64,000 nucleotides of DNA from an uncultured Clostridia bacterium. Lineage in GTDB: Bacteria > Bacillota > Clostridia > UBA1381. The stretch is taken from positions 1 to 64,000 of the forward strand of contig CALXSS010000002.1 in assembly GCA_944391225.1 (NCBI GenBank). Direction: 5' to 3'. Below the pieces are notes generated by a model, which was not told where the DNA came from, did no database searches, and saw only the letters and a program-made list of their open reading frames with translations. Shown here in pieces: positions 48,161-57,139 of this stretch (position 1 is its first letter; every line of letters begins with the position of its first letter). The translations under genes and the position numbers were made by a program.

Positions 48161-51100
48161 ATGAATATTGTAGGAAAAGCAATATGCATCCTATTGGCGT
48201 TATCACTTACAGCGCCGGCGGTGGTTTTGGCGGATACTGACAGAGCAGACGGCAGTAAGCTAATATCTCATGAAGAAGCTGAACTGCGCAGACAGCTCAT
48301 AAATAATAAAGAAAGCGCCATCTATATATCCGAAAACGTCAGTGATAATGTGATATATATAGAAACAGCTGAGGATCTATTGGCTATAGATGGAGAGAGT
48401 GACGGCTATTATGAGCTAAAAGACAATATCGACTTATCAGGTATAAGCTGGATACCGATTGATCTTTACAATGCAACAATAAATGGTGCAGGATATAGCA
48501 TCACGGGTTTGACATTAGACAGAGTGTATGAGAATGAATATGGCGAAAACAATGCAGGCATGTTTGCCGGATATGGAATATATATAGCAGATCTTTCGAT
48601 ATCCGAAGCAAAAGCAGACATATCTCTTTCCGGTTCTGACAATGAATATGAAAATTATCAAATAAGCGTGACAGGAGATGTGTATCTCGACCACTGCATG
48701 ATAGACGCTGACATAAATGTTGTCGGCGCGTCAGACAATATGTCGTTAAACGTGCTGGGAATCAGCAGCGGAAATGATACGGTTTTCAATGGAGATATAA
48801 ATGTTGTAAACGGCAGCGTAAAAGCTATGGTGGGCAGCGTGAGAGGCTGTGAGTTCATAGGAGATATTAGCTCTGAGGGAGAGTATTTCAATGCGTATGG
48901 TATAGAAACTTATGAGACTGCAGAAAACTGTGCGATTTATGGTGATATAACTGCTGACGGTGTGGCAGTTGGGATAAGCGGACCAGCGGAAAGCTGCAGG
49001 TTTTACGGTGACATCACAGGCGGTAGCGCGGTCGGATGCTTAAATAATTTATCGGACTGCATTGTTACAGGTGATATAACAGCTGTTTCAGGTCACGCGC
49101 ATGGAATAGAAAATAGTACAGGCTGTGTTGTCGAGGGTGATATTACTGGCTTTGACGCATATGGTATCTATGGTCAGTCGAGTGATTGCAGCGTATACGG
49201 CAGTATAGCATCTAAAACGGATGGATATGGCTCTGCAGCAGGGATATATATAACAGGCATAGGTGCAGGCTGCAGTGTGTATGGCGATGTTACAGCATAC
49301 AGCGGAGGCGCTTTAGGCATAACAGCGTTTGAAGCGTGGCAGGATGGAGAGAGGATAAGCGGAAGCGTATACAGCAGCGCCGTATACGGTAATATATCTG
49401 GCAGCGACAGCGCAAGAGGTATGTATATATACAACGGAGAGCTGAAAAATTGCACTGTATATGGGAATATAACCTCAGGTGGTGAAACGGTAGGCATAAT
49501 ATCATCAGGTGCTGTGAAAAGCTGCTCAGTATATGGTGATATTTCTGTGAACGAAAACGCGGCGGGTGAAGCTGTAACAGCCGCAGGCATAAGAGCTTAT
49601 CAGGAATATGGCGCAACAGAGGGCTGCATAATCAAGGGAAATATTACTTCTCCATACACTGCTTTAGGAATAGAGGGGGCGCAAAATTCTTGCTTATATG
49701 GCAGTGTGACGGGAGGCAGAGTAGACTTTGGTATGTCAGAAAGCAGCGGATGCTATATATCAGGCAGCATAGCTGAGCAGAGCGAGGATTCACCGCTCAC
49801 GGTAAGCGCGTCAGTGCCATATCAGGCGTGTTACAGGTGCAATGAATGTGGTTCAGAGCTCCTCTCAGCTCAGGATATGGGAGAGAGATACAAATGCGGA
49901 TGCACGTCATATTCGTATTATTACAGGGTGAATGAGCTTTGCTACGACTCAGGTTCAAGACCTGAGATGGGAACGGAAGTGACACCTGCTCCTGAAATGA
50001 CAGCGCCGCCTATGGGACCTTGTATAATAACAGTTCTGGATTATGAGACCTCAGAGCCTATTGCTTGGGCTGAGCTCAAACTGGACGGCAAAAAGTACAT
50101 CACAAATGAGAATGGTGTCGTTGTTTCAGACAGGAGCGGTGTGATAGCCGGTCTGAGCGTAAGTATAGGCGGAAATATAATACATACAGAGACTAATTAT
50201 GTGGCAGCCGCAGGACATTTGAATACGGTTTATGTTAACGGGCTTGATCTTGAAGCAGAAGATTTTAACTTTGGAAATGGCGGAGAAGCTTCCGTGACAG
50301 GACCTCAGATAAGTATTATGGGAAAACAGTTCAGTTTGTTTGAACTGCCGGTTAGTTTTGAGAAAAACTATATGGATATAATATCTTTGGCGTATGATAA
50401 GGAGAACAAGGAGTATCAGGCTATCATAGGAATGGCATATGATAAAGAGTCCATAGTCAATAATGATGCTAAAAATCCTACATGGAGAAAACAATTCGAT
50501 TCTATAGTGGGATTTTTCCGCGAAGCAAGTACGAATGGCTTTACAGACGAGCTTATAAAGTCGTTTAATAACACAGAGCTTTCTCCTAAACCGAGATTTG
50601 GCAGACTGGCAGTAGATGGACAGGTTAGAGTGTCAGGTTTTTTGAAGCTAAAACCTGCAAAAGATGATATAGCTGTAGAGGGCGGTGTCATCATGACAGG
50701 ACAGATGTCCGGATCGACAAGTATTCCATGGCCTTTATGTCCTGCGCTGTATGCTGCATTTTCGATAACAGGAACGGTAGGAACATCTCTGTCGTTTGAA
50801 CCCACAAATATTTCGATCAAGGATCCTCAATTTGATGTAAAGGGCAATATAAATATGGGGCTGACGCCGGCGGTAGGTGTTGGAGCCGGCTTAAAGGGAA
50901 TGCTCGGAGTAGAGGCAGGGCTTCAAGGAACGTTAGAGGCATCTGTTGATTTCCCGTTTGAGACGGCAGAAAAATCATTAAAAGTAACTCTTTCAGGCGG
51001 ATACTATGTAATGAGCTACTGCCTTGGAAGAGAATATAGGGTGTCAGACAAGCTTGCGTCATTGCAGCTGTATCCTGATAAAGATGAAATAAAGATAGCA

Positions 51101-53299
51101 GAGGTCAGCGAGGAAGATTTTGACGATGTTGACAGGAGTTATCTTGAGCTGGTTGGCGCTGGCGAATATGACGGATATACATATAAAACGGGAGTGTACC
51201 CATATGCAGATGTTAAAACAGTCCGACTAAGCGGTGAAAGAGTTCTTATGGTCTGGCTTGATGACGACGCGCAGCGCGAAGACAGCAACAGAACAGCCTT
51301 ATATTACAGCATATATTCAGACGGAACATGGAGCGAGGCGGCACAGATCAGCAGCGATGGAACAGCTGATTATTCATTTGCTCTTGCTTCAAACGGAAAT
51401 AGGGCATATGTGACGTGGCAGAATGCTGTTACACAGCTTAGCGGAGACGAAAGTCTTGATGATATCGCCGCCGGTACACAGCTTATGATTTCAGGATTTG
51501 ACGGCGATATATGGAGCGAGCCGGAGAAGGTAACAGATGAAGGCGTTTATGCTTATGATCCGCATATACAGTCGAGCGGAGACAACGTGTATGTGATGTG
51601 GACACAGAACAGTGGCAACAAGGCTGTAGCTGGCGATTCAGAGACTGAAAGCATCCATATGTCAGCCTATTATAATGGTGTACTTCAAAGCGAGGCAGAG
51701 GAAAAAGTATCAGGTCTTGTGCCGGGATCACAAGGTGCTTTGAATAGCAGCGGCGAAACTGCTGTAGTTGACAGCAACGGAAAAATACTGTATATTGACG
51801 GCGTTCAAAAATATACCGCAAACGGAAAAATAACAGGCTTAAGCAGTTTGGACAGCGAGTTTTATTTCGTTGACAGCGGCGAGCTTAAGAAGATATCCTC
51901 GTTTACCGGAGCACAAAAGCTATGTTCCGGAATAGGAGAATATCCTGTGATAATAGAGGCAGGAGAGGACTATGCCGCTGTATACAGACAGCAGGATGGT
52001 TTCAGAGCTGATCTTTATGCGGTGTATATAAGCCGAGACGGCAGCTGCACAGCGCCTGTTCCGGTGCTAAAGTCTGAAAAGATGATACGCTCGTTTTGCC
52101 CGGCAGCTGATGATGATGGGAATATATCTGCAGCGGCAGTTGTTATAAATGCGGGTGAAAATGATACTACGGAGATACCGGAGCTGATATATACCGAGAC
52201 TGCGCCTATAGAGGACATCGCAGTTGAGGCTATATCAGTATCTGATACCATAGAGCTTAATAAAATGGCTGATTTTACAGTTTCAGTTACTAACCGTACC
52301 AAGTCGGTGCTGACAGATGTATACTTAACGATCAGTGGCGAGGACTGCGGTGAACTGTACAGCAGCAATATCAAGACGCGAATTGAACCGGGTGAAACAG
52401 AAAAAGTCAAAGCGCTTGTAAAGATACCGGATAATTTTGTTAAACAGACTGTAACGGCAGAGGTGACATCAGCAGCGGTTGAACAGAATACGGGCAATAA
52501 TTCGATCTCAGATATATTTGGAGGCGCAGATCTCAGTGTTGAGCTCAGAGGAAAAGAGCTTACTGTCAGGAATATAGGAACAGACGCCGCGAACGGCGTT
52601 GAACTCAAGGCGAACGAAAATGTATTGATAGATCAGAAGATAGGTGTATTGGAAGCCGGTGAAAAGTATTCCGTTATGCTTGAAAGTGAAGACGATGTGA
52701 CGGTTGAAGCAGTAAGCTCAAGCGATGAGCAGTATTTGTATAACAATACATGCAGCGGCAGCACAAAGGATAGGGTATTGCTGATTGCATCAGATAAAAG
52801 AGTTGGGGTTGCGCCGGGCGAGAAATATTCGTTAAGAGTGGATTCCTCGTCTGATGAAGATGTTCCTGTATACTTTGTGTCAAGTGATGAGACTGTGGCG
52901 GCGGTAGATGAAAACGGAACAGTCACAGCAGTATCGGAAGGCGCAGCGGCTGTGGAGATAATATCACCGAATGCACTGACAAGATCTGTTGTTATGATAT
53001 ATGTGCGAGAGAAAAGATCGCCGGAGATAATTTCAGCAGAGTTGAATGATTATGGAGAATTAAAGCTGAGGCTTGATACATCAGAGTGTATGGCGAGTGG
53101 TGAAAGCGGTGAGCTAATAGTTGCAGTTTATGATGAGGATGGAGCGCTTATTGCTGTTGAGAAAAAAGCAACGTCAGGACAGGAATGTGATCTTAGCATG
53201 TATATTAATGGCGGATATCCTGCAAAGGTAAAGGCGATGGTGTGGAACAGTATAAACGGAATGTATCCATCATCATATGCGGCAGAAGAGAATATATAA
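48161..53299 (+). CDS. Very large secreted multidomain protein (beta-helix-like repeats, CARDB-like and Ig-like domains)
   Basis: A predicted 1712-residue secreted protein. Signal peptide 1-25 (cleavage after VLA). Residues about 70-550 contain over fifteen imperfect 20-25-residue repeats of the type CSVYGDITxxxxAxGI, as in right-handed beta helices. At about 555-600 a CxxCxxC plus CxC cluster (CYRCNECG ... CGC) looks like a zinc ribbon. A Pro/Thr linker leads to a carboxypeptidase-regulatory-like beta sandwich (about 625-690), a long unassigned region, repeats with W/Y strands (about 1010-1250), CARDB-like adhesion domains (about 1345-1530) and a Big_2-like domain (about 1545-1615). No wall anchor is seen. 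It starts 3 bp after trmB with AGGTGAC overlapping the trmB stop, so it may be coexpressed with housekeeping genes. Confidence 0.78.
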   Translation: MNIVGKAICILLALSLTAPAVVLADTDRADGSKLISHEEAELRRQLINNKESAIYISENVSDNVIYIETAEDLLAIDGESDGYYELKDNIDLSGISWIPIDLYNATINGAGYSITGLTLDRVYENEYGENNAGMFAGYGIYIADLSISEAKADISLSGSDNEYENYQISVTGDVYLDHCMIDADINVVGASDNMSLNVLGISSGNDTVFNGDINVVNGSVKAMVGSVRGCEFIGDISSEGEYFNAYGIETYETAENCAIYGDITADGVAVGISGPAESCRFYGDITGGSAVGCLNNLSDCIVTGDITAVSGHAHGIENSTGCVVEGDITGFDAYGIYGQSSDCSVYGSIASKTDGYGSAAGIYITGIGAGCSVYGDVTAYSGGALGITAFEAWQDGERISGSVYSSAVYGNISGSDSARGMYIYNGELKNCTVYGNITSGGETVGIISSGAVKSCSVYGDISVNENAAGEAVTAAGIRAYQEYGATEGCIIKGNITSPYTALGIEGAQNSCLYGSVTGGRVDFGMSESSGCYISGSIAEQSEDSPLTVSASVPYQACYRCNECGSELLSAQDMGERYKCGCTSYSYYYRVNELCYDSGSRPEMGTEVTPAPEMTAPPMGPCIITVLDYETSEPIAWAELKLDGKKYITNENGVVVSDRSGVIAGLSVSIGGNIIHTETNYVAAAGHLNTVYVNGLDLEAEDFNFGNGGEASVTGPQISIMGKQFSLFELPVSFEKNYMDIISLAYDKENKEYQAIIGMAYDKESIVNNDAKNPTWRKQFDSIVGFFREASTNGFTDELIKSFNNTELSPKPRFGRLAVDGQVRVSGFLKLKPAKDDIAVEGGVIMTGQMSGSTSIPWPLCPALYAAFSITGTVGTSLSFEPTNISIKDPQFDVKGNINMGLTPAVGVGAGLKGMLGVEAGLQGTLEASVDFPFETAEKSLKVTLSGGYYVMSYCLGREYRVSDKLASLQLYPDKDEIKIAEVSEEDFDDVDRSYLELVGAGEYDGYTYKTGVYPYADVKTVRLSGERVLMVWLDDDAQREDSNRTALYYSIYSDGTWSEAAQISSDGTADYSFALASNGNRAYVTWQNAVTQLSGDESLDDIAAGTQLMISGFDGDIWSEPEKVTDEGVYAYDPHIQSSGDNVYVMWTQNSGNKAVAGDSETESIHMSAYYNGVLQSEAEEKVSGLVPGSQGALNSSGETAVVDSNGKILYIDGVQKYTANGKITGLSSLDSEFYFVDSGELKKISSFTGAQKLCSGIGEYPVIIEAGEDYAAVYRQQDGFRADLYAVYISRDGSCTAPVPVLKSEKMIRSFCPAADDDGNISAAAVVINAGENDTTEIPELIYTETAPIEDIAVEAISVSDTIELNKMADFTVSVTNRTKSVLTDVYLTISGEDCGELYSSNIKTRIEPGETEKVKALVKIPDNFVKQTVTAEVTSAAVEQNTGNNSISDIFGGADLSVELRGKELTVRNIGTDAANGVELKANENVLIDQKIGVLEAGEKYSVMLESEDDVTVEAVSSSDEQYLYNNTCSGSTKDRVLLIASDKRVGVAPGEKYSLRVDSSSDEDVPVYFVSSDETVAAVDENGTVTAVSEGAAAVEIISPNALTRSVVMIYVREKRSPEIISAELNDYGELKLRLDTSECMASGESGELIVAVYDEDGALIAVEKKATSGQECDLSMYINGGYPAKVKAMVWNSINGMYPSSYAAEENI

Positions 53300-55192: not shown

Positions 55193-56674
55193 TTACTTAT
55201 CAAGCGGCTTCATGGTGGGGAACAGGAGCACGTCTCTTATTGCCGGTGAATCTGTAAGCAACATACACATACGGTCTATTCCAAAGCCTATTCCGCCTGT
55301 AGGCGGCATTCCTATCTCAAGCGCTCTCATAAAGTCCTCGTCAGTAGTATTAGCCTCGTCATCACCCTGAGCCAAAAGCTCCTCCTGCGCCTTAAAACGC
55401 TCTCTCTGATCAATTGGATCGTTCAGCTCTGAATATGCGTTAGCCATTTCCCAGCCGTTCATAAAGAATTCAAATCTTTCAACGTACTCCGGATTTTCAG
55501 GCTTCTTCTTTGTGAGCGGTGATATTTCTATCGGATGATCCATAACAAATGTCGGCTGGATCATATGCTCCTCTGCAAATTCCTCAAAGAACAGATTAAG
55601 TATATCGCCCTTTTTATGTCTTTCCTCATATTCAACATTGTGTTCCTTCGCCGCCCTGCGCGCATCCTCAAGAGTATGGATCTCGTTAAAATCCACTCCG
55701 GCGTATTTCTTAACGGCATCTACCATGGTTATGCGCTCAAACGGCTTGCCGAGATCCATCTCAACTCCGCCGTAAACTATCTTGGTCGTGCCAAGCACCT
55801 CCTGAGCAACATGACGGTACAGGTTTTCTGTAAGATCCATCATGCCATGATAATCAGTGTATGCCTGATACAGCTCCATGAGCGTGAATTCCGGATTATG
55901 ACGTGTGTCAAGTCCCTCGTTTCTGAATACTCGTCCTATCTCATAGACCTTTTCCAGACCTCCTACAATAAGACGCTTAAGATAAAGCTCCAAGGAAATT
56001 CTGAGCTTAAAATCCTCGTCAAGCGCATTGAAATGCGTTTCAAACGGCCTTGCCGCCGCTCCTCCGGCATTTGCAACAAGCATAGGTGTTTCTACCTCAA
56101 GGAATCCCTGACCGTTGAGATAACTTCTTATTGATGCCACTATTTTTGATCTCTTTATGAATGTGTCCTTTACATCCTCGTTCATTATAAGATCCACATA
56201 TCTCTGACGATATCTGAGATCAGGATCGCTCAGACCGTGAAACTTCTCCGGCAGCGGCTGCAATGACTTTGAAAGCAGTGTTATCTTTTCCGCTCTTATC
56301 GATATTTCGCCCGCCTCGGTTCTGAAAACTATTCCTGTAACACCGATTATATCACCTATATCAAGCTTCTTGAATCTGTCGTACTCCTCATCTCCAAGAA
56401 CATCTTTCTTTGCAAACACCTGTATCTTCCCTGTAAGATCAAGAAGATCGCCAAAGCCGATCTTACCCATGCGGCGCTTTGACATAAGTCTGCCGGCAAT
56501 GGTCACTTCCTTATCCTCATAATCAACAAAATTATCCTTTATATTTTTTGCGCTGTTGTCGCGCTCAAATTTTGTTATTTTAAACGGATCCATATCCGCA
56601 TTCACATACTCTGTCAGCTTATCGCGTCTGTTCTTTAATATCTGCTTAAGTCTTGAACTGTCCTGCTGTTCCAT
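55193..56674 (-). CDS. lysS: Lysyl-tRNA synthetase, class II
   Basis: A 493-residue class II synthetase. The OB-fold anticodon domain covers about residues 60-150 (VTIAGRLMSKRRMGKIGFGDL), motif 1 lies near FLEVETPML, motif 2 near VYEIGRVFRNEGLDTRHNPEFTLME, and motif 3 is GIGFGIDRM. ATG 56674 follows AGGAGG by 8-9 nt. Its upstream region is unusual: a 340-bp inserted palindromic element begins 15 bp upstream of this ribosome site's gene side and separates it from the likely promoter at 57111-57139. Confidence 0.97.
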   Translation of the reverse strand: MEQQDSSRLKQILKNRRDKLTEYVNADMDPFKITKFERDNSAKNIKDNFVDYEDKEVTIAGRLMSKRRMGKIGFGDLLDLTGKIQVFAKKDVLGDEEYDRFKKLDIGDIIGVTGIVFRTEAGEISIRAEKITLLSKSLQPLPEKFHGLSDPDLRYRQRYVDLIMNEDVKDTFIKRSKIVASIRSYLNGQGFLEVETPMLVANAGGAAARPFETHFNALDEDFKLRISLELYLKRLIVGGLEKVYEIGRVFRNEGLDTRHNPEFTLMELYQAYTDYHGMMDLTENLYRHVAQEVLGTTKIVYGGVEMDLGKPFERITMVDAVKKYAGVDFNEIHTLEDARRAAKEHNVEYEERHKKGDILNLFFEEFAEEHMIQPTFVMDHPIEISPLTKKKPENPEYVERFEFFMNGWEMANAYSELNDPIDQRERFKAQEELLAQGDDEANTTDEDFMRALEIGMPPTGGIGFGIDRMCMLLTDSPAIRDVLLFPTMKPLDK

Positions 56675-56692
56675 CAAAAAAACCTCCTATAC

Positions 56693-56703
56693 TAAATTAA
56701 TAT
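56693..56703. repeat. Left 11-bp target-site duplication
   Basis: TAAATTAATAT, identical to 57044-57054, directly flanking the inverted-repeat-bounded element. Confidence 0.8.
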
Positions 56704-57043
56704 TAGGCAATTATAAAACTCTAAAAGAGTTTTATAATTGCTACCTATTTGATGTGTACTCGAGGATGTACCCGCCAAGAAAGGCGGGCAAGACCGAAGG
56801 TCTTGATTTTGCTGCGGCAAAATTACTGGGTGTACCCTCGAATTTAATAAATTTCTGAACGATGTGCACCGCGCAAGAAAGCGCGGTCAGCCAAAGGCTG
56901 AATTTTGCTTTGCAAAATTGCTGAATGCGCGTCAGAAATTTGGGTTAAAAAAGTTTCAACATACATATTTTATGTAATTGGATGGAACTTTTTTAACCTA
57001 CTTTAACCAGATTAATTGTGAAACATAGTTTCACAATTGCCTA
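56704..57043. mobile_element. 340-bp non-autonomous, MITE-like palindromic element in the lysS leader
   Basis: Ends are inverted repeats: TAGGCAATT at 56704-56712 against its complement at 57035-57043, continuing imperfectly for about 16 bp. Exact 11-bp direct repeats flank it. Almost all of the interior is paired: terminal hairpin 56707-56741; four-way junction module 1 (56760-56841); homologous module 2 (56849-56941); a 13-bp hairpin (56943-56955 with 56986-56998); terminal hairpin 57014-57038. It has no gene. Target duplications of 10-12 bp are known for IS4-family elements, so mobilisation in trans by such a transposase is possible. Confidence 0.8.
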
Positions 57044-57054
57044 TAAATTAATAT
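57044..57054. repeat. Right 11-bp target-site duplication
   Basis: TAAATTAATAT, identical to the left copy at 56693-56703. Confidence 0.8.
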
Positions 57055-57110: not shown

Positions 57111-57139
57111 ATTATACTACAATTTTATAAATAATACAA
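57111..57139 (-). promoter_or_regulatory. Likely lysS promoter, upstream of the inserted element
   Basis: Minus-strand TTGTAT (57134-57139) and TATAAT (57111-57116) with 17-bp spacing. Transcripts would start near 57104 and cross the whole inserted element before reaching lysS. Confidence 0.6.

Follow-up and report, generated by a model that had tools for sequence, protein, structure and literature searches.

The question raised by this locus is what kind of sequence separates lysS from its promoter, and how it came to lie at a set distance from the ribosome-binding site. The window analysed is a 64,000-nucleotide stretch from an uncultured Clostridia bacterium, whose source genome is a 2.63-Mb MAG in 144 contigs. 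The relevant features, by window position, are as follows.

55193-56674, minus strand: lysS (lysyl-tRNA synthetase), an open reading frame with its ATG start codon at 56674.
56683-56688, minus strand: AGGAGG, the lysS Shine-Dalgarno, at 15 nt from the end of the element and 4 nt outside the duplication.
56693-56703: lysS-side copy of the target-site duplication, TAAATTAATAT, identical in 11 of 11 positions to 57044-57054.
56704-57043: non-autonomous element (MITE) of 340 bp, the long form with both accessory modules; multi-copy in its own genome, fold z -14.3.
56707-56741: H1, terminal hairpin including an inverted repeat, with perfect 16-bp arms.
56760-56841: H2 stem (TCGAGG/CCTCGA) around the first accessory three-hairpin module (module stems at 56771-56788, 56789-56805 and 56806-56823).
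56849-56941: H3 stem (AAATTTCTGA/TCAGAAATTT) around the second accessory three-hairpin module (module stems at 56869-56886, 56887-56901 and 56902-56918).
56943-56998: H4 (GGTTAAAAAAGTTTCAAC...GATGGAACTTTTTTAACC), the most sequence-conserved part of the family, near invariant across species.
57014-57043: H5, terminal hairpin with the second inverted repeat, showing compensatory changes between species.
57044-57054: distal copy of the target-site duplication, TAAATTAATAT, identical in 11 of 11 positions to 56693-56703.
57111-57116, minus strand: TATAAT of the ancestral promoter of lysS, which the element now separates from the gene, identified by comparison with the lysS leaders of G007 and G014.

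The original prediction described an exact 11-bp duplication flush with inverted repeats that match imperfectly over about 16 bp, around a non-coding interior built of hairpins, and took this for the signature of a DDE-type transposase. The description is borne out: the element termini abut the two copies of TAAATTAATAT directly (TAGGCAATT at 56704 and AATTGCCTA at 57035-57043), and the inverted repeats have arms of 17 nt with 88% complementarity. No gene was found within the 340 bp, the sole overlapping plus-strand open reading frame being a 100-aa frame that runs in from lysS. Besides the terminal inverted repeats the element holds four more hairpins, and the order along its length is H1 (terminal), H2, H3, H4 and H5 (terminal). 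As single-stranded DNA the predicted fold has an energy of -87 kcal/mol against a mean of -35 for dinucleotide shuffles (z -14.3), and the RNA fold also lies beyond that of shuffled sequence (z -11.2). Among 11 copies compared, 12 of 70 predicted pairs have changes on both sides that preserve the pair, these mostly representing a single split between this genome and the others. Between species, the H4 stem (GGTTAAAAAAGTT...AACTTTTTTAACC, 56943-56998) has changed less than the mobile ends.

Strong folding and a location in the leader of a tRNA synthetase would also suit a conserved lysS leader, riboswitch or T-box-like, beside which the flanking repeat is coincidental. Such a conserved regulatory leader was considered and is refuted by the other genomic copies and by element-free orthologues, so that its probability is negligible: in 12 congeners the orthologous lysS leaders have no element terminal repeats within 500 bp, which supplies the empty sites that transposition predicts, the element precedes many unrelated genes in both orientations, and an Rfam search of the 340 bp matched no family. 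The promoter AACCATTGTA...GTAGTATAATAG is common to the lysS leaders of the window, G007 and G014, and in the latter two it lies about 20 bases from AGGAGG; the element therefore entered the leader between promoter and Shine-Dalgarno. With the ancestral promoter upstream of it, the element is probably part of the lysS transcript, as a structured leader. Elsewhere in the window, positions 48161-53299 encode a predicted surface-type protein of 1712 aa with many short degenerate repeats.

A mobile element should have other copies, and a sequence search found many in the source genome, full or partial, with duplications of their own; several are truncated by the end of a contig, as repeats are expected to be. 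Dozens of small elements of discrete sizes occur in this genome and four congeners, with about 85 end-like matches in G003. The H4 motif is present in 5 of the 16 genomes of the genus (this genome counted), Candidatus Ornithomonoglobus merdipullorum being among the named relatives that share it, and in none of 54 other genomes of the family. Forty-seven elements could be paired, of 35/36 bp (24), 40/41 bp (6), 77/83 bp (3), 214/215 bp (7), 276 bp (3), 340 bp (1) and 406 bp (1), the remainder having odd sizes of 33 and 67 bp. The interior is modular: copies of 214 bp are without both accessory modules, those of 276 bp have the H3 module alone, and in the 406-bp copy (L003) the H2 module is doubled. 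The tandem duplicate of the H2 three-hairpin module is seen at L003:1509-1914 and L008:1-213, module number thus varying as in BOX elements, while the H3 module also occurs in G007 and partly in G003. Both loop types occur among the 36-bp solo elements; these solos may have arisen by deletion between direct repeats in the H1 and H5 arms, or may be independent transposition units. In G006 (L034:1300-1617), a solo H5-type hairpin adjoins a full element, each ending in CACCAGGTA.

Most copies are flanked by an AT-rich target duplication of their own, mostly of 9-16 bp, distinct for each copy and in some cases degenerate. Exact flush duplications of at least 9 bp were found for 34% of the 47 elements against 0.2% of pairings in a shuffled-flank control, a figure to be read with the fact that pairing used a duplication score to pick among candidate end pairs; many further duplications are one base off exact. 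The ends are host-specific (TAGGCAATTGTAAAAC in this genome, G000, whose own IS has TAGSCGATTGTAAAA, and TAGGTRATTGCGAAAC in G003 and G007), whereas the H4 core is near invariant across species. Judged by its duplications, shared ends and empty orthologous sites, the element is mobile.

The original prediction also pointed to an insertion sequence with matching ends, and one is visible at the contig edges of the MAG. Six contigs begin inside one of two other repeats whose ends are near-identical to those of the element (C9, C47 and C120; C10, C28 and C32): end B, TAGCCGATTGTAAAACTC..., runs into promoter-like sequence and a start codon, and end A is TAGGCGATTGTAAAAT.... The 11-bp TTACAACCAAA flanks both end B on C47 and end A on C32, a shared duplication that makes A and B the two ends of one IS. 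H1 of the element resembles the transposase-proximal end of this IS (compared with end B). The body of the partner IS is absent from the MAG, and its transposase is known from relicts in G001 (L173) and G032 (L239) and other clostridial homologues alone. The relicts led to full-length homologues, intact in Butyrivibrio pCY360 and a Roseburia plasmid, and matches were found in 32 of 391 sampled Clostridia genomes.

The homologues encode a protein of about 488 aa with DUF772 (53 bits, above the cut-off) and a diverged DDE_Tnp_1 domain (17 bits, below the cut-off), in which D145, D286 and E430 are invariant and a Y-2-R-3-E-6-K signature is present; together with the mobile copies, this upholds the DDE-type assignment. 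The Pfam and NCBIfam search of the transposase returned DUF772, DDE_Tnp_1-type and IS1182/IS5 models and no Mutator-type model. Scores on the NCBIfam IS1182 model NF033551 were 70 and 67 bits, below the 270-bit cut-off, and the transposase is therefore termed IS1182-related rather than IS1182.

Several neighbouring observations concern insertion sequences of this kind. An IS1182-like IS in G002 (L214, with the end TAGCCACGTGCAAAACTC) was rejected as the main partner, being related but divergent and without a clear duplication. End pairs 1 kb and 1.2 kb apart (G003:C44 and G007:C190) were considered as transposons and proved instead to be separate solo elements, surrounding an AraC-type gene and phage-like genes. 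In G004 (L143:1501-1818), an IS-like end TAGCCGATTGTGAAACTC is followed by a GC-rich hairpin block and a start codon (MTNSPLDYIRPYL...); this may be an IS of a different type that has acquired similar ends. IS copies stand head to tail with one shared target duplication between them at L240:564-4109 (Butyrivibrio pCY360, CATTTATTTATAAA) and L304:1338-3100 (G271), which suggests repeated insertion beside an existing copy or amplification in place. Neither the IS ends nor the 36-bp palindrome gave anything useful when searched against viral contigs, plasmids and phages.

Size classes, modular interior and target choice all go beyond what the original prediction had seen, and the last of these is the unexpected result. 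In 42 of the 47 paired elements, AAGGAGG (with at most 2 mismatches) starts 11-18 nt outside one end, compared with 12% of random and 13% of AT-rich positions. In a flank test that made no use of the duplication score, covering the distinct outward flanks (265) of end-like matches, 64 of 80 occurrences of AGGAG fall at offsets 13-17, with few elsewhere. This motif is usually the Shine-Dalgarno of a gene, and in a separate count 42 of 47 elements had a Shine-Dalgarno with an outward-facing ATG within 55 bp, against 18% of random positions. The partner IS ends in this genome are likewise 13-17 nt from AGGAG. For autonomous IS copies (28, from about 20 clostridial genomes), the motif is at the same offset in 27 with at most 2 mismatches (null 4.5%) and in 18 with at most 1 mismatch (null 0.7%). 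It lies outside the IS end nearest the 5' end of the transposase gene, which leaves target gene and transposase divergent. H1, the counterpart of the transposase-proximal IS end, is nearest the motif in 9 of 12 long MITEs. About one in ten elements has no good motif (for example L195 and, among the ISs, L303).

Intergenic positions upstream of genes account for nearly all copies, and the 11 bp adjoining them are 83% AT. Insertion that is untargeted, or directed merely to AT-rich DNA, could yield this picture if the copies that survive are those between promoter and ribosome-binding site. Survivorship would, however, give a broad spread of distances, while AGGAG is found at 14-16 nt in most flanks; AT-rich positions satisfy the offset in only the 13% given above, the motif is almost always missing from the flanks at the right end of these IS copies, and at the terminator-associated sites there is no start codon to protect. 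This explanation is thus unlikely, and selection that removes insertions into coding sequence may sharpen the offset pattern. The terminator-associated sites also bear on what is read at the target. The motif is a ribosome-binding site in most cases, as it would be if the signal were RNA or an initiating 30S ribosome at the Shine-Dalgarno. Three insertions, however, lie beside GGAG in terminator hairpins without a start codon (the second-site element of L202 at 595-630, L248 and L276), and the motif beside L202 and L248 is not at a gene start but on the strand opposite the distal arm of the terminator. These sites favour recognition of a DNA motif, and an RNA or ribosomal signal is just as improbable as survivorship; it seems to be the motif in DNA, rather than the ribosome, that is read.

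The sequence evidence taken together makes it very probable that the segment before lysS is a MITE moved by an IS1182-related transposase whose insertions are directed to a fixed distance from the Shine-Dalgarno. Its host would be a Candidatus Ornithomonoglobus-like clostridial genome, and its ends would be copied from an IS1182-related IS whose DDE transposase moves it in trans. The transposase, alone or with a host factor, would recognise the motif and select some 11 bp of AT-rich DNA at a distance of 3-5 bp upstream from GGAG/AGGAGG. Staggered cuts would flank this stretch, its far edge 3-5 bp from GGAG, and strand transfer and gap repair would leave a duplication of 9-16 bp with one copy between element and motif. 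Because the duplication is left on both sides, neither the Shine-Dalgarno nor the spacer upstream of it is lost. As AGGAGG is itself the Shine-Dalgarno, nearly all insertions land in a leader between promoter and ribosome-binding site. The inserted element would then join the leader with the ribosome-binding site intact.

The closest precedent in logic is found in TnGBS, ISLre2 and some ISKra4 elements, whose insertions lie 15-17 bp upstream of the -35 box of sigma-A promoters (PMC3942029). These are also DDE elements at a fixed distance from a gene-control signal, and TnGBS-type insertions have a set orientation like that of the IS copies described here; their signal, unlike that of the present clade, is the sigma-A -35 region and their transposases are Mutator-like (PMC3942029). 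The present system has GGAG as its signal and an IS1182/IS5-like transposase unrelated to theirs. IS1272 is a member of the IS1182 family. It replaces inverted repeats (hairpins) and makes no duplication (PMC5678879), whereas the present clade makes duplications of 10-14 bp next to GGAG. The partner transposase resembles that family in scoring on its NCBIfam model, in DUF772 and DDE_Tnp_1 and in hairpin-forming ends, and differs in reaching 70 bits, under the 270-bit cut-off.

Among non-autonomous elements, the BOX elements of Streptococcus pneumoniae have a modular MITE plan, and in the part of the account drawn on they are described as MITE-like, intergenic and strongly folded, with fixed end modules, a variable number of inner modules and frequent co-transcription with genes, all of which are points of likeness by description (PMC3049150). 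They belong to another host and consist of tandem boxB units, whereas here the modules sit in the loops of two stems; unlike the present elements, they have no fixed Shine-Dalgarno offset in that part of the account (PMC3049150). Nezha and other IS-derived MITEs, cited in the same paper (PMC3049150), are likewise non-autonomous and carry copies of the ends of an IS found in their own host. Unlike the present element, Nezha-type MITEs derive from another IS family. To our knowledge, no Shine-Dalgarno targeting is known for Nezha or other IS-derived MITEs. In its treatment of insertion sites, a 2024 review of prokaryotic MITEs gives intergenic preferences and no Shine-Dalgarno rule (PMC10969869). 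A literature search that left aside ISfinder and most subscription journals found no account of Shine-Dalgarno-directed transposition, and an earlier description is possible. On balance, it appears probable that the transposase of an IS1182-related clade, widespread in Clostridia, reads the Shine-Dalgarno motif in DNA and places the IS and its MITEs about 15 bp upstream in fixed register, oriented in such a way that the target gene keeps its ribosome-binding site; this would be a hitherto undescribed mode of target selection.

Site-directed transposons are valued for their safe-haven targets. The fixed-distance case in the literature aims at promoters (PMC3942029). If the present reading is true, a transposase aimed at the ribosome-binding motif would insert in leaders genome-wide with coding sequence unbroken, and would offer a simple motif-addressed insertion system for study. 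The 36-bp palindromic forms with duplications of their own would raise the question of the lower size limit of a DDE-mobile unit. For the host, 5' leaders would be rewired en masse, as here, where lysS would gain a folded leader of about 340 nt.
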